DNA from: Ignavibacteriales bacterium CG18_big_fil_WC_8_21_14_2_50_31_20
GTDB taxonomy: Bacteria; Bacteroidota; Ignavibacteria; Ignavibacteriales; Melioribacteraceae
Length of the DNA: 64,000 nucleotides
Reading direction: 5' to 3'
Assembly: GCA_002786785.1 (NCBI GenBank)
Contig: PCUD01000166.1
Span: 7,315 to 71,314 of the forward strand
Notes under the pieces: generated by a model
What the model was told of the DNA's origin: nothing
Databases searched by the model: none
Seen by the model: only the letters and a program-made list of their open reading frames with translations
Program-made: the position numbers and the translations under genes
Shown here: piece by piece, positions 12,719 to 25,926 of the stretch
Numbering within the stretch: the first letter of the stretch is position 1
Layout of the letters: every line of letters starts with the position of its first letter

Positions 12719-14281
12719 CTAATTCTTTTTAAATAGTTTGTAATTTATACTATCTGTAAGTGCTTGTAATGATGCTTGAATAATATTTTCAGAAACTCCA
12801 ACTGTTGACCAAGTATTATTTTTGTCTCCCGATTCAATTAATACACGCACTTTTGCTGCAGTTCCATCGCCTTCACCAAGCACGCGCACTTTGTAATCAA
12901 TCAAATGAACATCATCTAATTTTGAATAAAACCTTCGTAATGCTTTGTGCAAAGCTTTATCAAGTGCATTTACTGGTCCGTGCCCTTCGGCTGCTGTGTG
13001 TTCAATTTCGCCATTTACTTCAACCTTTAAAACTGCTTCTGAATATTCAGAACCCTTGTCGTCGAACATAACATTTACTTTTGCATAAACAACATTAAAG
13101 TAGGTTGGCAGTTGGTTAAGTTCATTGCGCAGTAACAATTCGAAGGAAGCTTCTGCTCCATCAAACTGAAAACCTTTGTATTCAAGATCTTTTAGAAAAT
13201 GGACAAATTTTTTATTGAATTCTTGATCATCTGGTAATTCTATTCCAAGTTTAGCAGCTTTATATCTAATATTACTCTGTCCTGATAAATCAGAAACAAT
13301 AACTCGCTGAATATTTCCAACTGCATTTGGTTCAAGATGCTCATACATTCTGCTATCTTTTAACACCGAACTAACATGAATCCCCCCTTTATGAGCAAAA
13401 GCGGATTTACCGACAAACGGAGCACGAGTATTTGGAGAAACATTCATCATTTCAAAAACAAAATTTGAAAGCGAAGTAAGATTTTTTAAATCCAATTCAA
13501 ATATAGTTTCTCTTTTCATTTTTAGAATTAGATTTGGAATTATTGTACAAAGGTCAGCATTACCACAACGCTCACCTACTCCATTCATTGTACCTTGAAT
13601 GTGAGTTGCACCAGCTTGAACAGCGGCAATTGAATTAGCAACAGCAACTCCGCCATCGTTGTGAGCATGAATTCCAATAGGAATTTCAATTTGCTTAATC
13701 GTATTTTCTGTAATATCAAATACCTCGTGAGGAAGTGAGCCGCCATTTGTATCGCAAAGGACAATTGTATCTGCCCCACCTTTAACAGCGGCCTTACACA
13801 TTTTGATAGCAAAGTTTTCATCATCCTTGTAACCATCGTAAAAATGCTCGGCATCAAAAATAACTCTGCGACCTTTTTCCACAAGAAATTTAACAGATTT
13901 GTAAATCAATTTTTCATTTTGTTCATCTGTTAATCCAAGCGTTTTTTCAGAATGGAAACGCCAAGTTTTTCCAAATATTGTTATAATTGGTGCATTTGAA
14001 ACTACAAGTTTGAGTAAGTTATTATCGCTTTCAATTCTATCAGGATAACGGGCTGTTGAGCCAAACGCACATATTTTTGAATTTTTAAGTTTCAAGTTTT
14101 GAACTTTTTCAAAATATTCTTCGTCTTTTGGATTACTACCTGGCCAACCACCTTCAATAATGTTAATTCCAAATTCATCCAATCTTTTTGTTATTTCTAA
14201 TTTATCATGGATGGAAACATTAACGCCTTCGCCTTGAGTACCATCTCTTAAAGTTGTATCAAATAATTCTAATTTTTTCAT
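12719..14281 (-). CDS. cimA: (R)-citramalate synthase
   Basis: A 520-residue CimA that condenses acetyl-CoA with pyruvate. The product is turned into 2-oxobutyrate by LeuCDB for isoleucine synthesis. The N-terminal HMGL-like barrel starts LFDTTLRDGTQGEGV, and the substrate-region block INIIEGGWPGSNPKDEEYF separates this clade (TIGR00977) from LeuA. HAHNDGGVAVANS holds metal ligands. The C-terminal LeuA-type regulatory domain (about 390-520) may bind isoleucine. It is the last gene of the ilv-leu operon, 119 nt after leuD across a repeat. Confidence 0.88.
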   Translation of the reverse strand: MKKLELFDTTLRDGTQGEGVNVSIHDKLEITKRLDEFGINIIEGGWPGSNPKDEEYFEKVQNLKLKNSKICAFGSTARYPDRIESDNNLLKLVVSNAPIITIFGKTWRFHSEKTLGLTDEQNEKLIYKSVKFLVEKGRRVIFDAEHFYDGYKDDENFAIKMCKAAVKGGADTIVLCDTNGGSLPHEVFDITENTIKQIEIPIGIHAHNDGGVAVANSIAAVQAGATHIQGTMNGVGERCGNADLCTIIPNLILKMKRETIFELDLKNLTSLSNFVFEMMNVSPNTRAPFVGKSAFAHKGGIHVSSVLKDSRMYEHLEPNAVGNIQRVIVSDLSGQSNIRYKAAKLGIELPDDQEFNKKFVHFLKDLEYKGFQFDGAEASFELLLRNELNQLPTYFNVVYAKVNVMFDDKGSEYSEAVLKVEVNGEIEHTAAEGHGPVNALDKALHKALRRFYSKLDDVHLIDYKVRVLGEGDGTAAKVRVLIESGDKNNTWSTVGVSENIIQASLQALTDSINYKLFKKN

Positions 14282-14400: not shown

Positions 14401-14961
14401 TTAATCTATCATTCCACTTTTTCGGGCATACTTGAAAAGTCCACCAGCTGAAACTATTGGCAACACATCTCCAAGTGGATTTAAATTAAAAGTCTCTCCA
14501 GTTGTATTATTGACTAAAAGATTATTTTCAATATCAATCTTTAATACATCCCCAGTTTTAACTTTTTCATTCAATTTTTCTTTTGTTTCGTATGGAATAA
14601 CAAAACCGCCATCAACAGAGTTGCGATAAAATATTCTTGCATAAGATTCTGCTATTATTACCTTTGCACCAGCTTTCTTAAGAGCGTATGGAGCATGTTC
14701 ACGCGAAGAGCCGCAGCCAAAATTTGAACCTCCAACAATAATTTGATATTCTGATTCAAATTTATCTTTTTCAACAAAAGGAATGTTACCTTCTGGCAAA
14801 CCAGACTTTTCTTTCGGAACACTCGAAAGAGCAAATTTACCATACATTTTAGCTTCGTTTTCATCATCCATGCTATATACAAGATGTTCAGCAGGAATTA
14901 TTTGATCAGTATCAATATTATTTCCTAATACAAATGCTTTTCCAATTACTATATTTTCCAT
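14401..14961 (-). CDS. leuD: 3-isopropylmalate dehydratase small subunit
   Basis: The 186-residue swivelling subunit of isopropylmalate isomerase. It has the aconitase-swivel signatures NNIDTDQIIPAEHL and GSNFGCGSSREHAPYAL. The complex with LeuC interconverts 2- and 3-isopropylmalate. With CimA in the operon it very likely also isomerises citramalate. The length fits the archaeal/Thermotoga-like LeuD form. It starts 24 nt after leuC. Confidence 0.92.
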   Translation of the reverse strand: MENIVIGKAFVLGNNIDTDQIIPAEHLVYSMDDENEAKMYGKFALSSVPKEKSGLPEGNIPFVEKDKFESEYQIIVGGSNFGCGSSREHAPYALKKAGAKVIIAESYARIFYRNSVDGGFVIPYETKEKLNEKVKTGDVLKIDIENNLLVNNTTGETFNLNPLGDVLPIVSAGGLFKYARKSGMID

Positions 14962-14985: not shown

Positions 14986-16281
14986 TTACATTAAATCACG
15001 TGGGTCTGTTATAACCCCTTTAACTGCTGATGCAGCAACCGTAAGCGGTGAAGCTAAATATACTTCCGCTTGTTTGCTTCCCATTCTACCTGGAAAGTTT
15101 CTATTAGTTGTGGAAATGGTCACATCTTTTCCAACTGTTCTACCAATTGTGTCATCAGGTCCACCAAGACAAGCAGCACAAGATGATTTTGCAATAACCG
15201 CTCCAGCATTTTCAAATATCTGCTTCAGAGATTGACCTTTATACATTTCAGTTTCCAATTGCTTGGCTACTTCTGTACTTGCAGGGACAACAAAAGTTGT
15301 AACTGAAACTTTTCTTCCAAACAATATTTTTGCAGCAAACTGAAAATCTGCTATTTTTCCACCAGTACAAGAACCGATATATGCCTTTGTAATAGGAGTC
15401 CCTTCAACTTCTCTAACTGAGGCTTTGTTGTCAGGACTATGTGGCTTAGCTACTAATGGAACAAGATTTTCGACATTGTATTCATATTTACTATGATAAA
15501 CAGCATCTTCGTCACTGTAAATTTTATCATAAGTTTTATTAGTCCTTTCTTGTAAATAAGCTTCTGTTACTGAATCAACTGGAATTATTCCATTCATTCC
15601 ACCGCCTTCAATAGCCATATTGCAAAGAGTCATTCTTTCATTCATTGATAGCGAAAATACTGCTTCGCCATCAAACTCCATTGCACGATAAGTAGCTCCA
15701 TCGGTAGTAATATCGCCGAGTATTTGCAATATTAAATCCTTGGCAGTTAGGTATTCTGGCATTTTCCCAGTGAAAGTAAATTTCATTGTTTCTGGAACTT
15801 TTTCCCAAATTTTTCCTGTACCCAAAATAAACGCAGCATCTGTATTCCCAACTCCAGTAGAAAACATTCCAAACGCACCGGAAGTACAAGTGTGTGAATC
15901 TGTTCCAATTAATACAGTTCCAGGAATATTAAATCCTTCTTCGGCAAGGGCAATATGACAAACACCTTTATAGCGCGAAGTTCCTACATCATAATAATTA
16001 TCAACCTTATATTCTTCAGCAAAATTGCGAAGTATATCAACATTTCTATTTGCGTGTTTATTTGCAGTAAATATATAATGATCAGGAAAAATAACAAGTT
16101 TATCTTTATCCCATATTTTAGCATCTTTTCCAAATTCATTTTTCCATATTCCAATTGTTGGCGGCCCGCAAACATCGTGTGTCATTAACACATCTACATT
16201 TAGCCAAACATTATCACCAGGTTTAACTGATTCTTTTCCAGCTGATTTAGCAAGAATTTTTTCAGTAATTGTCATTCCCAT
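14986..16281 (-). CDS. leuC: 3-isopropylmalate dehydratase large subunit
   Basis: A 431-residue Fe-S hydro-lyase subunit. It opens MGMTITEKILAKSAG, has GTDSHTCTSGAFG, and carries the cluster ligands in GSCTGG and CAACLGG. At about 430 residues it belongs to the shorter archaeal/HacA-like LeuC form, not the 465-residue enterobacterial one. AAGGAG lies 8 nt upstream of the ATG. It pairs with LeuD next in the operon and serves both leucine and citramalate-dependent isoleucine synthesis. Confidence 0.92.
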   Translation of the reverse strand: MGMTITEKILAKSAGKESVKPGDNVWLNVDVLMTHDVCGPPTIGIWKNEFGKDAKIWDKDKLVIFPDHYIFTANKHANRNVDILRNFAEEYKVDNYYDVGTSRYKGVCHIALAEEGFNIPGTVLIGTDSHTCTSGAFGMFSTGVGNTDAAFILGTGKIWEKVPETMKFTFTGKMPEYLTAKDLILQILGDITTDGATYRAMEFDGEAVFSLSMNERMTLCNMAIEGGGMNGIIPVDSVTEAYLQERTNKTYDKIYSDEDAVYHSKYEYNVENLVPLVAKPHSPDNKASVREVEGTPITKAYIGSCTGGKIADFQFAAKILFGRKVSVTTFVVPASTEVAKQLETEMYKGQSLKQIFENAGAVIAKSSCAACLGGPDDTIGRTVGKDVTISTTNRNFPGRMGSKQAEVYLASPLTVAASAVKGVITDPRDLM

Positions 16282-16293
16282 TAATTTATCTCC

Positions 16294-17874
16294 TTAAATC
16301 TCACCTTTTAATTCTTCTTCATTTTGAAGTTTGTTTTTAATTCTTTCATGGTGTTCTTTTTTATTTATAGCCTGAATATATGCTTTCCCACTTGCTTCAA
16401 TAATATCAGTTGATACACCAACGCCAGTATAAGAGCGATCATCTTTTCTAATTCTAACAGCAACTTCACCAAGAGCTTCTCTGCCTGCAGTTACTGAACG
16501 AACACGATATGATTCAACGGTTGGTTTTTTATCAATTGCTCTATCAATTGCATTAAATAATGCATCGACAGGACCATCACCCGTTGCAGAATCTTCATTT
16601 ACTTTTCCGTCAACTTTTATTCTAACAGTTGCGGTTGGAATTGTTGAAGAACCACCAAAGACATGCATATATTTTAAGTCATAAATTGCTTCATTTCTAT
16701 TTTTGGAGTCGCCCATAAGAATTCTTAAATCGTCATCATAAACTTCCTTCTTTTTATCTGCTAATTTTGTAAAGGATTTATAAATGTTATTCAAATCTTC
16801 TGGAGCAACTTTATATCCAAGTTCATCTAGGCGTGCTTTTAAACCATGCCTTCCAGAGTGTCTTCCTAAAACAATTTTTGTATTTTGCACTCCAACAGTT
16901 TCTGGTGTCATTATCTCGTATGTTTCACGATTCTTCAACATTCCGTCCTGATGAATTCCAGATTCGTGTGCAAAAGCATTTTCACCAACAATAGCTTTGT
17001 TTGGTTGAACAATAATGCCAGTATAACCAGAAACTAATTTTGAAGTGTTCATTATTTCTTTTGTATCTATTTTGCTTTCAATACCTAAAATATCTTTGCG
17101 CACTTTTAATGCCATCACAATTTCTTCAAGTGCTGCATTGCCAGCACGTTCACCAATTCCATTTATTGTGCATTCAACTTGGCGTGCACCATTCTCAATA
17201 CCAGCAATGGAATTAGCAACCGCAAGACCAAGATCATTATGGCAATGCACACTAATAATTGCGTTCTCAATATTTTTAACTTTCTTTTTTAAGTATGCAA
17301 TTTTTTCACCAAACTCTCTTGGGAAAGTATATCCAGTGGTATCGGGAATATTTATTGTTGTTGCACCAGCTTCAATAGCAGCTTCAATAACTTCAACAAG
17401 ATAATTCAAATCGGTACGTCCAGCATCTTCTGCAGAAAATTCAACATCATCAACTAGTGATTTTGCATACTTTACCATATCATAAGACATTTTTATAATA
17501 GTTTCACGCTTTTCAGCCAGAGTTCTACCATATCTATCGTCTCCAAACTTACCAAGAATATGATAATCAGAAGTACTGGAGAATGTATGAATTCTTTTCT
17601 TCTCACCATTTTTAATTGCATCGTAAGCAGATTTGATATCAATTTCTTTTGCGCGCGCAAGTGCTGCAACTGTCACTCCAACTTCATTTGAAATGCGTTC
17701 AACGGCTTCATATTGTTCGGGAGATGAAACTGGAAATCCAGCTTCAATTACATCAACATTTAGCTTTTCAAGTTGCTTTGCAATTTCAACTTTTTCTGAA
17801 ACACTTAAAGATGCTCCAGGTGATTGCTCGCCATCACGCAATGTTGTATCAAATATTATTAATTGATTATTCAT
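16294..17874 (-). CDS. leuA: 2-isopropylmalate synthase
   Basis: A 526-residue LeuA that joins acetyl-CoA and 2-oxoisovalerate in the first step of leucine synthesis. IIFDTTLRDGEQSPGASL at the N-terminus, ISVHCHNDLGLAVANS with metal ligands, and GENAFAHESGIHQDG are the expected blocks. The C-terminal domain (about 390-510, including SATGDGPVDALFNAID) is the leucine-binding regulatory domain, so feedback inhibition is likely. It sits 11 nt after leuB and 12 nt before leuC in one transcription unit. Confidence 0.93.
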   Translation of the reverse strand: MNNQLIIFDTTLRDGEQSPGASLSVSEKVEIAKQLEKLNVDVIEAGFPVSSPEQYEAVERISNEVGVTVAALARAKEIDIKSAYDAIKNGEKKRIHTFSSTSDYHILGKFGDDRYGRTLAEKRETIIKMSYDMVKYAKSLVDDVEFSAEDAGRTDLNYLVEVIEAAIEAGATTINIPDTTGYTFPREFGEKIAYLKKKVKNIENAIISVHCHNDLGLAVANSIAGIENGARQVECTINGIGERAGNAALEEIVMALKVRKDILGIESKIDTKEIMNTSKLVSGYTGIIVQPNKAIVGENAFAHESGIHQDGMLKNRETYEIMTPETVGVQNTKIVLGRHSGRHGLKARLDELGYKVAPEDLNNIYKSFTKLADKKKEVYDDDLRILMGDSKNRNEAIYDLKYMHVFGGSSTIPTATVRIKVDGKVNEDSATGDGPVDALFNAIDRAIDKKPTVESYRVRSVTAGREALGEVAVRIRKDDRSYTGVGVSTDIIEASGKAYIQAINKKEHHERIKNKLQNEEELKGEI

Positions 17875-17885
17875 TTTTCTTCCAA

Positions 17886-18983
17886 TTAAAGTGTAAATAC
17901 ACTCTCTTTATTTTCTTGATAAATTATATCAAAGTTCTTGATTATCATTTCTGTCATTTTATCAGTTGATACAACATTTCCGTTATCGAGATTTATGTCA
18001 ACTGTTCTAAATCCTTGGTCGAGTGTTCTTTCAATTGCTTTTTCTATCAAATCGGCTGTTTCTTTCATTCCAAATGATAAATCGAACATCATTGCAACAG
18101 AGCCAATCATGGCAATTGGATTTGCTTTATTTTGTCCTGCAATATCTGGAGCGCTTCCGTGAACTGGTTCATACAAAGCATATTTATCACCAAGGCTTGC
18201 TGATGGAAGCATACCAAGACTTCCTGTAATCATTCCAGCTATATCACTAATTATATCACCAAATAAATTTGAGGTTACAATTACGTCAAATTGGCGTGGG
18301 TCGCGAACAACTTGCATTGCCGTGTTATCCACGTACATATTATTTAATTTCACATCTGGATATTCTTTGCTAACTTCTTCAACAACTTTTCTCCAGAATT
18401 GAGATACTTCCAAAACGTTTGCTTTATCAACAGATGTTAGTACTTTTTTTCTTTTTTGTGCAACTTTAAATGCTTGATGAGCTATGCGTTCAATTTCATA
18501 TTTTTCATAAACCATTGTATTGAAGCCTTTGTTTTCATCATAACCACGTGGTTCACCAAAATAGATTCCACCAGTCAATTCACGAAAAACGACAAAATCA
18601 GTTCCTAGAATTACACTTTCTTTTAGCGAAGAAGAATTAACAAAAGATGGATAAACCTTTGCTGGACGAATGTTTGTATATAATCCTAACGATTTTCTTA
18701 GCTTCAACAAAGCTGCTTCTGGTTTTAAATGATGTGCAAGATTTTCCCATTTATAGCCACCAACAGCACCTAGCAGAACAGCATCCGATTCATAACAAAG
18801 TTGAATTGTTTCATCAGTCAGTGGTGTTCCATAAGCGTCATAAGAGCATCCGCCCATAAGACTTTCAGTAGTTTCAATTGTTAAATCATATTTTTCAGCA
18901 ACGTGGTGCATAAGTTTAACTGCGGCAGACATAACTTCTGTTCCAATGCCATCACCAGGTAGAAGAGTGACTTTCTTTTTCAT
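17886..18983 (-). CDS. leuB: 3-isopropylmalate dehydrogenase
   Basis: A 365-residue NAD-dependent beta-decarboxylating dehydrogenase. Its blocks are LLPGDGIGTEVM, the substrate loop LLKLRKSLGLYTNIRPAKV, RELTGGIYFG, and the signature NLFGDIISDIAGMITGSLGM. The N-terminal length and ALLKLRKSL helix are those of LeuB and not isocitrate dehydrogenase. It probably also acts on 3-methylmalate for the citramalate route. It begins 3 nt after ilvC. Confidence 0.93.
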   Translation of the reverse strand: MKKKVTLLPGDGIGTEVMSAAVKLMHHVAEKYDLTIETTESLMGGCSYDAYGTPLTDETIQLCYESDAVLLGAVGGYKWENLAHHLKPEAALLKLRKSLGLYTNIRPAKVYPSFVNSSSLKESVILGTDFVVFRELTGGIYFGEPRGYDENKGFNTMVYEKYEIERIAHQAFKVAQKRKKVLTSVDKANVLEVSQFWRKVVEEVSKEYPDVKLNNMYVDNTAMQVVRDPRQFDVIVTSNLFGDIISDIAGMITGSLGMLPSASLGDKYALYEPVHGSAPDIAGQNKANPIAMIGSVAMMFDLSFGMKETADLIEKAIERTLDQGFRTVDINLDNGNVVSTDKMTEMIIKNFDIIYQENKESVFTL

Positions 18984-18986
18984 TAA

Positions 18987-19991
18987 CTAATCCTCATCAT
19001 TTTTGTTTTTAACCCAGCTCATCATTCCACGTAATTTAGCACCAATTTTTTCTATTGGATGTTCACTGTTTTCTTTACGAAGTCTTGTCATATTAGCTTT
19101 GTCACCATTAACTTCTGCAACAAAGTTTTTAGCAAATGTTCCATCTTGAATTTCTAACAAAGCAGCCTTCATTGCTTTTTTAGATTCTGCGTTAATTATT
19201 TTTGGTCCTGTTACATATCCACCATATTCTGCTGTATCACTAACCGAATAATTCATTCTTGATAAACCACCTTCGTAATAAAGGTCAACAATTAATTTCA
19301 TTTCATGCATTACTTCAAAGTAAGCAAGTTCTTCAGGATAACCAGCTTCTGTTAGTACTTCAAATCCAGCTTTAATTAATTCTGCTGAACCTCCGCAAAG
19401 GACAGCTTGTTCGCCAAATAAATCAGTTTCAGTTTCATTTTTAAAATTAGTTTCAATAACACCTGCTCTAGTTCCACCAATTCCTTTTGCCCAAGCTAAA
19501 GCCATTTCTTTTGTATTTCCAGAATAATCATTATGAATAGCTATCAAACAAGGTACACCATTCCCTTCTCTGAAAGTTCTACGTACCAAATGTCCAGGAC
19601 TTTTAGGAGCAATCATCATAACATTAATTGTTTCTGGAGGAACTATTTGTTTGTAATGAATATTAAAACCGTGAGCAAATACAAGAGTATTCCCGTCTTC
19701 CATATTTTGTGCAATTTGTTCATCATAAACTTTCTTTTGATCTTGATCAGGCAAAAGAACCATAACAACATCAGCCCATTTTGAAGACGCATCAATTTCC
19801 ATTACAGTCATACCTAAATCAGTTGCTTTTTTCCAAGAAGTTCCATCTTTTCTGGCACCAACAACCACGTTCATTCCACTTTCTTTTAAGTTTAATGCAT
19901 GCGCATGACCTTGACTTCCGAAGCCCAAAACCGCAATTTTCTTATCCTTAAGTGATTCTAACGATGCGTCACTATCATAATATGCTTTCAT
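18987..19991 (-). CDS. ilvC: Ketol-acid reductoisomerase, class I
   Basis: A 334-residue class I KARI, the second common step of valine and isoleucine synthesis. The Rossmann loop is [20 protein letters not shown]. The following [15 protein letters not shown] holds the residues that set NADPH or NADH preference; the Arg-Lys and Ser there suggest NADPH. Metal ligands are in the knotted C-terminal domain ([16 protein letters not shown] and [19 protein letters not shown]). It is 11 nt from ilvN and 3 nt from leuB. Confidence 0.93.
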
Positions 19992-20002: not shown

Positions 20003-20515
20003 TTATTTTTTATTAATATATTCATTTTGGGGTCTAATTTGCTCACCTCTTTTTAGAGCAACCGTACCAGAACGAGCCATTTCAATAATTCCAAAAGGCA
20101 TTAGAACGTTAATTATTGCATCAATTTTTTCTGGAGGTCCAGTAATTTCAAGCATCATAGTTTTATTGTTTATATCAACTATTTTACCACGAAATATATC
20201 GTTAATGTTTTTAATTTCTTCAATTCCACTTTTTTGCAGACTAACAGTAATAAGAGCTAATTCCCTTTCGGTTCTTGCTTGTCCAGTTAATTCAGTTACT
20301 TTTATTGTATCAATTAATCTATTTAATTGTTTTACAATTTGGTCAATTAATTGTACATCTCCGGATGTAACAATTGTCATTCTGGAAATATCTTTTTGTT
20401 CTGTTTCTCCAATAGAAATACTATGAATATTAAAACCTTTTGCACTAAACATTGTAGCAACTCTATCAAAAGCTCCAAAAGTATTTTCTACTAAAACTGA
20501 TATTGTGTGTCTCAT
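20003..20515 (-). CDS. ilvN: Acetolactate synthase small regulatory subunit
   Basis: A 170-residue ACT-domain subunit. It opens [20 protein letters not shown] and has [19 protein letters not shown], the ACT domain that binds valine or another end product. The C-terminal domain stimulates the catalytic subunit. Length matches the IlvH/IlvN long form. It overlaps the ilvB stop by 4 nt (ATGA), so it is translationally coupled to its catalytic partner. Confidence 0.9.
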
Positions 20516-22233
20516 ATTATCATCCTCTTAGGGTTTAATCTTTTTAAAATCATGTCTGTAATTGTGCCCCCAGATGGAACCATTGGAAATACTAAATCTT
20601 CTTTAGCAACTTTAAATTCAACAAGTGTGGGTCTATCTTTAATTGCAAATACTTTATCAAGAATTCCATCAACTTCTTCTGGGCTATCAGTTGAAAAAGA
20701 TTCAATTCCAAAAGCTTCACCAAGTGCTGTAAAATTAGGATTACTTTCTCGTAAATCTGTAAAACTATATTTCTCTTCATGAAATAATTCTTGCCATTGT
20801 CTAACCATTCCAAGAAAGCCATTATTCATTATAAAAAATTTAATTGGCAGTTTATGGTAAACAGCAGTAGTAAGTTCTTGAATATTCATCTGAAAACCAC
20901 CATCACCGTTTATTGAAACAATTGGTCTATCTTTAATTCCAAAAGCAGCACCAATAGAAGCAGGAACAGAAAAGCCCATTGTACCTAAGCCGCCGCTACA
21001 AACATGTGAGTTTGGATTGTTAAATTTATAATATTGTGCAACCCACATTTGATGTTGCCCAACATCAGAAACAATAATTGCTTCACCTTTAGTCTTTTCT
21101 GAAATTCGTTCAATAACATATTGAGTGCGTAATTTATTATCAGGTCTAACATATTCTAATGGGCAAGCTGTTTTCCATTTGTCTATTTGATCCCACCATT
21201 CATCTTCTCGCGGCTTATCTGAAAGTTCAGCTAATAATTCAGTAAGTATAATTTTAGCATCACCTACTATTGGTAAATCTACAATTACATTTTTATCAAT
21301 TGCTGTTGGGTCAATATCAATATGTATTTTATAAGCGTTACTTGCAAATGTCTCAGTATTTCCGGTAACTCTATCATCAAAACGAGCACCAACGGCAATA
21401 AGAACATCGCAATTATTTACTGCTTGGTTAGCATAATATGTTCCATGCATTCCCAGCATTCCTATAAATAAAGGGTCTATTCCTGGAAATGAACCTAATC
21501 CTAATAGAGTATTGGTAACTGGAATATTATTTTTTCGTGCAAATTCTGTCAACTCCTTTGAAGCATTGGACATCAGCACTCCGCCACCAACATATAGTAA
21601 AGGACGTTTAGCTTTTTTTATAACTTCTACAGCCTTTTTTATTTGATTTATATTTCCATTTAATGTTGGTTTATAACCTCGAATTTCAATGCTTTCTGGA
21701 TATTCATATTCACATTGAGCAGCTATTACATCTTTTGGCAAATCAACAAGCACTGGACCAGGTCTTCCAGTTGAAGCAATGAAAAAAGCTTTCCTAATAA
21801 CCGATGCCAAATCTTTTACATCTCGCACCAAGAAATTATGTTTTGTAATTGGACGAGTAATTCCAACAATATCAGCTTCTTGAAAAGCATCATTTCCAAT
21901 CAACTTTGACGGAACTTGACCAGTGAAAACAACTAAAGGAATTGAGTCCATATATGCATCCGCAATTCCAGTAACGGTGTTTGTAGCTCCAGGTCCAGAT
22001 GTAACAAGCACAACACCAGGTTTTCCTGTTACACGAGCATAGCCTTCTGCAGCGTGAGTTGCACCTTGCTCATGTCGAGTTAAAATATGTTCAAGAAAAT
22101 CAATGTCATATAATTTCTCATATAACTTTATAGTTGCTCCACCAGGATAACCAAATATTTTTTCTACTCCTTCTAATCTAAGGGATTCAAAAAATATATC
22201 TGCTCCAGTCATCATTTGTTTTTTATTATTCAT
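20512..22233 (-). CDS. ilvB: Acetolactate synthase large subunit
   Basis: A 573-residue ThDP enzyme that makes acetolactate or acetohydroxybutyrate. The N-terminal block VEKIFGYPGGATIKLYEKL contains the region before the catalytic Glu in TRHEQGATHAAEGYAR. FAD-domain residues lie in the middle (AVGARFDDRVTG). The ThDP-binding motif is NGDGGFQMNIQEL followed by FIMNN. Length is normal. It is encoded between ilvD (24 nt) and ilvN (overlap). Confidence 0.93.
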   Translation of the reverse strand: MNNKKQMMTGADIFFESLRLEGVEKIFGYPGGATIKLYEKLYDIDFLEHILTRHEQGATHAAEGYARVTGKPGVVLVTSGPGATNTVTGIADAYMDSIPLVVFTGQVPSKLIGNDAFQEADIVGITRPITKHNFLVRDVKDLASVIRKAFFIASTGRPGPVLVDLPKDVIAAQCEYEYPESIEIRGYKPTLNGNINQIKKAVEVIKKAKRPLLYVGGGVLMSNASKELTEFARKNNIPVTNTLLGLGSFPGIDPLFIGMLGMHGTYYANQAVNNCDVLIAVGARFDDRVTGNTETFASNAYKIHIDIDPTAIDKNVIVDLPIVGDAKIILTELLAELSDKPREDEWWDQIDKWKTACPLEYVRPDNKLRTQYVIERISEKTKGEAIIVSDVGQHQMWVAQYYKFNNPNSHVCSGGLGTMGFSVPASIGAAFGIKDRPIVSINGDGGFQMNIQELTTAVYHKLPIKFFIMNNGFLGMVRQWQELFHEEKYSFTDLRESNPNFTALGEAFGIESFSTDSPEEVDGILDKVFAIKDRPTLVEFKVAKEDLVFPMVPSGGTITDMILKRLNPKRMII

Positions 22234-22257: not shown

Positions 22258-23937
22258 TTATTTTATTCTAAGAACTGCACCTTTACTAGCAGATGTTACC
22301 ATTTTTGAATAACGTGCTAAGTAACCTTTTTTTATTTTTGGTTCAAAATCTGGTATTAATTTTAACCTTTCATTTATTTCATTATCTGTTAATTCAACTT
22401 CTAAAATCTTATTTGGAATGTCTATTGAAATAATATCTCCATTTTTCAATGCTGCTATTGGTCCCTTTTCAGCTGCTTCTGGAGAAATATGTCCAATACA
22501 TGCTCCACGAGTGCCACCTGAAAATCTTCCATCGGTTAATAAAGCTACTTTATCTCCAAGTCCCATTCCCATTATTTCACTAGTTGGGGCAAGCATTTCA
22601 GGCATTCCAGGACCACCTTGCGGACCTTCATATCTAATTACTACAACATCACCAGCTTGAATCTCTTTATTTCTAATTCCAGTAAGTGCCCCATCTTGTG
22701 ATTCATAAATCCTAGCTGGACCTTTATGAACCAACATTTTAGGATTTACAGCCGCTGTTTTAACAATTGAACCTTCAGGTGCAAGGTTGCCAAAGAGAAC
22801 AGCCAGGCCGCCTTTACTTGAATATGGGGATTCAATACTTTTTATTACATTCTTATTTTTAATTTGGCTATTCTTGATGTTTTCACCAAGAGTTTTCCCT
22901 GTTACTGTTAATCTATCAAGTGCTAAAATATTTGGAACTTTTGATAACTCGTTTAATATTGCTGAAATACCCCCAGCTTCATCAACGTCTTCCATGTGAA
23001 CAAATGGCGATGCAGGGCTGACCTTACAGATATAAGGCACTTTATCAGCAAGAACATTTAATTCTTTTAAATCAAAATCAATTCCAGCTTCAATAGCAAT
23101 AGCAATTGTATGAAGTATTGTATTTGTGCTTCCACCCATTGCCATATCAAGGGCAAATGCGTTCATAAACGTTTCGCGTGATAAAATATCGCTTGGCTTA
23201 ATATCATCTTTAACCAAATTCATAATCTGTTTTGCAGCAGATACAGCTAATTCTTTTCTTCTAGGGTCAACTGCTAATATTGAACCATTTCCTGGCAAAG
23301 CCAAACCAAGGGCTTCCATTAAACAATTCATAGAGTTTGCGGTAAACATCCCAGAACAAGAGCCACAAGTTGGGCAGCTTACAGTTTCAAGCTCAAGGAG
23401 AGTTTCTTCATTAATTTCACCTGTTTTAAATTTTCCAACGCCTTCAAATACTGAAACTAAATCTGTTTTATCACCTGCAGCCGTAACGCCGGCTTTCATG
23501 GGGCCTCCGGAAACAAATATAGTTGGAACGTCAATTCTTACAGCTGCCATTAACATTCCAGGCACTATTTTATCACAATTAGTAATACAGATAATTCCAT
23601 CCAAACGATGCGCTTCAACAACAGTTTCAACACTATCGGCAATAAGTTCTCTGCTTGGAAGTGAATAGCGCATTCCAATGTGCCCCATTGCAATTCCATC
23701 ATCAACACCAATTGTATTAAATTCAAAAGGAATTCCACCAGATTCTCGAATTGCATCTTTTATTATTTTCCCATATTCTTGTAAATGAACATGCCCGGGT
23801 ATTAAATCTATATATGAGTTTACAACACCAATAAACGGTTTATTAAAATCTTCGTTATCTTTTATTACACCGGTTGCTCTTAACAAACTTCGATGTGGAG
23901 CTTTTTCGAAACCTTTTTTGATTAAATCTGATCTCAT
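22258..23937 (-). CDS. ilvD: Dihydroxy-acid dehydratase
   Basis: A 559-residue Fe-S dehydratase, the third common step in valine and isoleucine synthesis. Cluster ligands are visible in [11 protein letters not shown] and [19 protein letters not shown], and the C-terminal block is [12 protein letters not shown]. This is the first structural gene of the ilv-leu-cimA operon. AAGGA lies 5 nt before the ATG. The 120 nt upstream hold hairpins and the end of a leader ORF that probably sets how much of the operon is expressed. Confidence 0.93.
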
Positions 23938-23985
23938 AATTTTCCTTAATTTTAATCCAACAAAAATATAACTTACTTGGTTCAG

Positions 23986-24081
23986 GTTAATCCTGAAATC
24001 TTTAAGATGTGAAATTTAAATGAAATGAAATCCGGATTAACTTTATATTATTTAGCCTACGAGTAAAATACTCAGTAGGCT
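23986..24081 (-). promoter_or_regulatory. Hairpins of the ilv leader (putative attenuator)
   Basis: On the minus strand the end of the leader ORF forms a hairpin: AGCCTAC with GTAGGCT (24075-24081 with 24054-24060) plus an inner 4-bp GAGT/ACTC. Downstream, GTTAATCC (24034-24041) can pair with GGATTAAC (23986-23993). The latter can instead fold into a small CAGG/CCTG hairpin (23983-23995). A third site, GGATTAA (23952-23958), lies just before the ilvD ribosome binding site. No T run follows, so control may be translational or Rho-dependent instead of intrinsic termination. Confidence 0.55.
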
Positions 24082-24201
24082 CAGAATAATAATTCCGAGT
24101 AGATTATTAATTATAATTGGTTGGTTACTTAAAACATTATACAAAAATACATTACTGTTTTTTAGTGCTTTATTTTGGCTATATGTACTTTGATTTTGCA
24201 T
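24052..24201 (-). CDS. Leader peptide of the ilv-leu operon (candidate)
   Basis: A 49-residue ORF between the operon promoter and ilvD. Its first 28 residues are polar (MQNQSTYSQNK at the start). The last 21 hold 7 Ile, 7 Leu and 1 Val, including IIINNLLGIIIL. Six of the seven Leu codons in that tail are CTA, CTC or CTG, while this AT-rich genome mostly uses TTA or CTT, as expected if the ribosome is meant to stall when charged tRNA-Leu is scarce. AGGA lies 3 nt before the ATG. The stop codon lies at the foot of a hairpin. This is the layout of a branched-chain amino acid attenuation leader. The function is inferred; the ORF and codon content are seen. Confidence 0.72.
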   Translation of the reverse strand: MQNQSTYSQNKALKNSNVFLYNVLSNQPIIINNLLGIIILSLLSILLVG

Positions 24202-24223
24202 AATTCCTAAATTTGTTTTTTAA

Positions 24224-24252
24224 AATATATATCAAGTATTGTTTTAAGTCAA
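24224..24252 (-). promoter_or_regulatory. Promoter of the ilv leader and operon
   Basis: On the minus strand TTGACT (24247-24252) and TATATT (24224-24229) are 17 bp apart. Transcription would begin about 16 nt before the leader ATG. An inverted repeat, GTTAATA-TATT-TATTAAC (24260-24277), lies 7 bp upstream of the -35 box and could be a regulator site. Confidence 0.65.

Positions 24253-24423: not shown

Positions 24424-25926
<1,503 letters not shown>

Follow-up and report, generated by a model that had tools for sequence, protein, structure and literature searches.

The nine-gene operon ilvD-ilvB-ilvN-ilvC-leuB-leuA-leuC-leuD-cimA in the window (the whole stretch of 64,000 nucleotides analysed here) is in all likelihood controlled by a ribosome-mediated attenuator, an arrangement that very probably turns the operon on when isoleucine, leucine and valine (I/L/V) run low. 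Eight of the nine genes were identified by NCBIfam models and leuD by context only. Leader-peptide attenuation of this ilv-leu-cimA operon had been put forward in the original prediction, and it was strongly supported by the leaders and compensatory changes found in relatives. A fuller reading, to which we give about even chances, is that of a clade-wide, uncatalogued branched-chain attenuator without an intrinsic terminator, which would act via Rho-dependent termination or translation control and which acquired, in one genus, a tandem second leader from the remains of ilvD.

Table 1. Features of the leader region and the operon, in window coordinates.
Feature	Position	Strand	Basis
Promoter-like site TTGACT-17-TATATT	24224..24252	-	10/12 consensus positions; consensus match only
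AGGA, putative Shine-Dalgarno of leader ORF	24205..24208	-	Sequence
Leader peptide ORF, 49 codons	24052..24201	-	28/28 orthologs have an I/L/V-rich ORF here
Arm 1, CTCGGAATT (Leu-Gly-Ile codons), in leader	24091..24099	-	Aligned in 46 species
Hairpin GCCTACTGAGTATTTTACTCGTAGGC across final leader codons	24055..24080	-	In MFE fold
Arm 2, GTTAATCCGGATT (consensus GGTCAATCCCNAA)	24028..24042	-	Alignment A1
Arm 3, GATTTCAGGATTAACC (consensus TTCGGGATTGACC)	23985..24000	-	Pairs with arm 2
3:4 hairpin TTCAGG-ATTAA-CCTGAA	23981..23997	-	Mutually exclusive with 2:3 helix
AAGGA, putative ilvD Shine-Dalgarno	23943..23947	-	Sequence
ilvD, first operon gene	22258..23937	-	TIGR00110, 805 bits
ilvB	20512..22233	-	TIGR00118, 814 bits
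ilvN	20003..20515	-	NF008864, 205 bits
ilvC	18987..19991	-	TIGR00465, 426 bits
leuB	17886..18983	-	TIGR00169, 496 bits
leuA	16294..17874	-	NF002086, 779 bits
leuC-type isopropylmalate dehydratase large subunit	14986..16281	-	NF001614, 490 bits, family level
leuD	14401..14961	-	By position and length; no NCBIfam match at 1e-60
cimA (citramalate synthase)	12719..14281	-	TIGR00977, 675 bits

The leader ORF is encoded on the minus strand, in the gap between a divergent O-acetylhomoserine sulfhydrylase (met) gene and ilvD, 114 nt from the latter. It translates as MQNQSTYSQNKALKNSNVFLYNVLSNQPIIINNLLGIIILSLLSILLVG followed by a stop, with IIINNLLGIIILSLLSILLVG as its C-terminal sequence. The ORF with its upstream AGGA was recovered as predicted, and the predicted promoter corresponds to a promoter-like site by consensus match. 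The earlier count of 15 I/L/V among the final 21 residues was the same on recheck; when the intergenic strand was shuffled 5000 times with its dinucleotides preserved, at least 15 such residues in the last 21 of any same-strand ORF occurred once. An equal value was found in two of the 672 window ORFs of 21-90 amino acids, so that composition alone is not decisive and conservation is. The bias towards rare CTN leucine codons held for CTA, CTC and CTG, which make up 12.7% of the leucine codons in 27 window genes vs. 7 of 10 leader leucine codons (P = 4.5e-5); it did not extend to CTT, which is common. As had been noted, the leader stop codon stands at the foot of a hairpin, immediately 3' of GCCTAC..GTAGGC; the 6-bp version of this hairpin was present in only 14 of 46 species and the hairpin is thus lineage-limited. 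The predicted fold of 24130-23938 had a z value of -3.2.

Retention of the ORF and its branched-chain enrichment in relatives, on which the original prediction had staked itself, was seen in all 28 ilvD orthologs from the sampled relatives of the order Ignavibacteriales. The ortholog leaders stop 109-141 nt before ilvD and carry 13-17 I/L/V among their last 21 residues. Over the final 20 codons, pS was 0.24 vs. a pN of 0.11 in five near relatives, and the substitutions were mainly from one of I/L/V to another. Judged by these sequence comparisons, which support both the peptide and its bias, the leader ORF is confirmed as a genuine short gene. Its hydrophobic C-terminus would by composition be compatible with a membrane helix, and the ORF might then encode a functional small membrane peptide to which the downstream RNA structure is unrelated. 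This is highly improbable: the N-terminal half is unconserved and the C-terminus varies within I/L/V, rare leucine codons are enriched, and in the RNA beyond the ORF the distance from the stop to the next arm is kept and the 2:3 helix covaries.

Among named relatives, the nearest are metagenome-assembled genomes (MAGs) of Melioribacteraceae and Ignavibacteriales, and an I/L/V-rich leader end is present at most named MAG loci in the analysis. MAGs titled Calditrichia, KSB1, Marinimicrobia and Chloroflexi have similar leaders before ilvD; in the Marinimicrobia leaders the RNA differs from the Ignavibacteriales core. Many of the Chloroflexi MAG loci (L085-L107) have short ORFs such as MNTIFTLSLIVVLLAVLIIKDLFLVRMATVRVQK upstream of ilvD, and three of them (L087, L097 and L101) gave no match when compared with Rfam.

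Downstream of the leader, arm 2 (GGTCAATCCC) starts at a distance of 6-13 nt in 46 species, counted from the stop codon's first base, and arm 3 (GGGATTGACC) follows approximately 40-60 nt beyond it, across an A-rich linker with 6% G. In alignment A1 (32 sequences) the 2:3 helix was 86.1% paired, compared to 81.1 ± 0.8 in shuffled alignments, and its covariation score (0.210 vs. 0.146 ± 0.010) was reached in 0 of 500 shuffles and exceeded that of all slid versions. The helix was then scored in a held-out set of 20 distinct further model matches, four that the first set already contained having been excluded. It was 85.8% paired in this set vs. 80.2 ± 0.9 (0 of 5000 species-swapped controls), a percentage that is biased towards 2:3, as the matches were found by a model containing this helix and the swapped control shares the bias only partly; slid versions of the helix were at chance level. 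The compensatory stem changes expected in relatives were therefore found in both sets, and by this comparison they support the proposed 2:3 helix. The original prediction had drawn three GGATTAA/TTAATCC pairings. The one between 24040-24034 and 23992-23986 stood and is order-wide, but no counterpart of the GGATTAA at 23958-23952, by the ilvD ribosome binding site, turned up in the relatives compared.

The 3:4 hairpin, a small one in which arm 3 pairs with arm 4 instead, approximately 30-60 nt from the ilvD start codon, was 74.5% paired vs. 70.8 ± 1.3 in shuffled alignments (4 of 500). In the held-out set it gave 60 of 5000 in this register, and the other registers tried there had no support; the hairpin apparently takes up more than one register. 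It is less firmly shown than the 2:3 helix, to which it would be an alternative. The complementarity between arms 1 and 2 was missing from the pairings first proposed. Arm 1 often reads CTAGGGATT in relatives, with GGGATT codons inside the leader, and was complementary to arm 2 in 83-87% of cells, more weakly in the window than in other genera. Its covariation with arm 2 was marginal (2 of 5000) and then absent in held-out sequences (1958 of 5000), and it is therefore on complementarity that we infer a 1:2 protector pairing.

Enterobacterial ilv and leu leaders combine an I/L/V-rich peptide and rare leucine codons with alternative 1:2, 2:3 and 3:4 pairings. In general design the Ignavibacteriales leaders resemble them in these features, with the 1:2 pairing judged by complementarity, and in the branched-chain operon that follows; they differ in that nearly all are without a U-tract terminator. 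Under a shortage of charged Ile-, Leu- or Val-tRNA, the ribosome would stall in the I/L/V run and cover arm 1, leaving arm 2 free to form the 2:3 helix; this would block the 3:4 hairpin, and expression would continue. When the three amino acids are plentiful, the ribosome would arrive at the stop codon, which precedes arm 2 by 6-13 nt, and either mask arm 2 there or, after release, let arm 1 pair with it. With arm 2 occupied, arm 3 would be free to enter the 3:4 hairpin and expression would drop.

In 43 of the 46 species no hairpin with a U tract behind it was present, with weak candidates in the other three, and no U tract directly follows the 3:4 hairpin. The earlier statement that no U-tract terminator is visible is thus correct for the window and holds for nearly the whole clade; a terminator hidden in relatives was considered and rejected, given only three weak sites in 46 species. 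The divergent met gene is preceded by a SAM riboswitch (RF00162, 88 bits; 24424-24527, plus strand), which shares the intergenic region back to back with the ilv leader and has a U-tract terminator after it (24543-24573), so the organism appears able to use such terminators. There was no support for the proposed outcome that stalling alters access to the ilvD ribosome binding site: the mean predicted accessibility was 0.36 vs. 0.37 on folding with and without arm 2, and the third pairing was not seen in relatives. A Shine-Dalgarno switch was rejected on the same mean accessibilities.

The main rival is translational attenuation, in which the same leader and arms would gate the ilvD start instead of transcription, as in erm leaders. 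The missing U-tract terminator speaks for it, as do a hairpin abutting the ilvD Shine-Dalgarno in some lineages (CTGAAGATTA..TAATCTTTCAG-AGG; segment pair z = 3.5) and, again in some lineages, a segment before arm 3 that is complementary to ilvD codons 2-6 (z = 3.7). However, a scan of leader segments for pairing with the ilvD start yielded lineage-limited leads only, kinship can inflate the z values, the 3:4 hairpin lies approximately 30-60 nt from the start codon, and the mean Shine-Dalgarno accessibility does not differ between the two states. We consider translational attenuation rather unlikely. With a U-tract hairpin missing in nearly all species, the same ilvD site accessibility in both states and a rho gene present in the organism's genome, premature termination of transcription is favoured over blocked ilvD translation and is our best guess for the output step. 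It would need no U tract and may depend on Rho, which the original prediction had named as an alternative.

Covariance model R1 of the RNA core gave one significant match in the window's own genome and matched in 78 of 164 genomes of Ignavibacteriales. Among 396 sampled genomes of the phylum, 20 had matches, all of them Ignavibacteriales. The best 30 matches were all upstream of ilvD or ilvB, an association with branched-chain genes that holds by comparison; further matches lie in front of leuB, of an ilvD remnant or of a gltB-like gene, and a few weak ones are without a clear partner gene. The core matched no family among the Rfam release 15 covariance models at E up to 5, and the loci of 18 relatives gave no hit to Rfam at the gathering score except a SAM riboswitch. 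Order-wide conservation of the core would also be expected of a riboswitch or protein-bound RNA that senses an amino acid directly, with the ORF incidental. The core consists merely of alternative helices round an A-rich linker, it has no Rfam counterpart, and the ORF with its I/L/V bias is retained in every ortholog; direct sensing is accordingly even less probable than a membrane peptide.

Other leaders of this general kind have been described. The ilvB-II motif (Corynebacterium), the ilvB-OMG motif (several phyla) and the Leptospira ilvB motif bear uORFs before ilvB, and attenuation has been proposed for them from a branched-chain-rich uORF and conserved RNA structure before an ilv gene (PMC10272879). 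Neither the window nor the loci of the 18 relatives matched any of these families in Rfam, and in Ignavibacteriales ilvD is usually the first gene and two long arms flank the A-rich linker. The leucine-rich attenuator peptide of Staphylococcus aureus is likewise a branched-chain leader controlling branched-chain synthesis, but it belongs to Firmicutes and works beside CodY (PMC5794164). In the wider Bacteroidota, leaders before amino-acid operons have been suggested for Flavobacterium psychrophilum, in an account whose relevant portion names no ilv leader and describes no family (PMC9723704). The view that leaders of this sort have rarely been described beyond Proteobacteria and Actinobacteria was thus too strong, as they are reported for Firmicutes (PMC2965389, PMC5794164) and suggested for Flavobacterium (PMC9723704). 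In a literature search on attenuation in Ignavibacter or Melioribacter, the ten titles listed included none on this clade. A 2004 survey by Vitreschak and co-workers reportedly also listed attenuators in Bacteroidetes/Chlorobi. The present comparison extends amino-acid leader attenuation of the ilv operon across Ignavibacteriales, provides an RNA model for searches that Rfam lacks, and raises the question of how classical alternative pairings stop expression when no U-tract terminator follows them.

Copies of the attenuator core were also seen beside an ilvD remnant (loci L148 and L157) and at two loci with no branched-chain gene within the stretch fetched (L146 and L147). At L151 (996-1061) the core lies approximately 100 nt upstream of a glutamate synthase-like gene, named by eye, and the leader ORF has few I/L/V. 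At loci L153, L154, L168-L174 and L183, ilvB lies 261-410 nt downstream of the attenuator and ilvD is missing. At these loci a second short ORF begins at the former ilvD start codon; in L153, L154, L172 and L174 it is again rich in isoleucine and leucine at its end (for example VQNINIIIILSIIILSI), apparently giving two leaders in tandem. As the ilvD start codon still opens a second leader in this ilvD-less genus, the locus is neutral between transcription and translation control.
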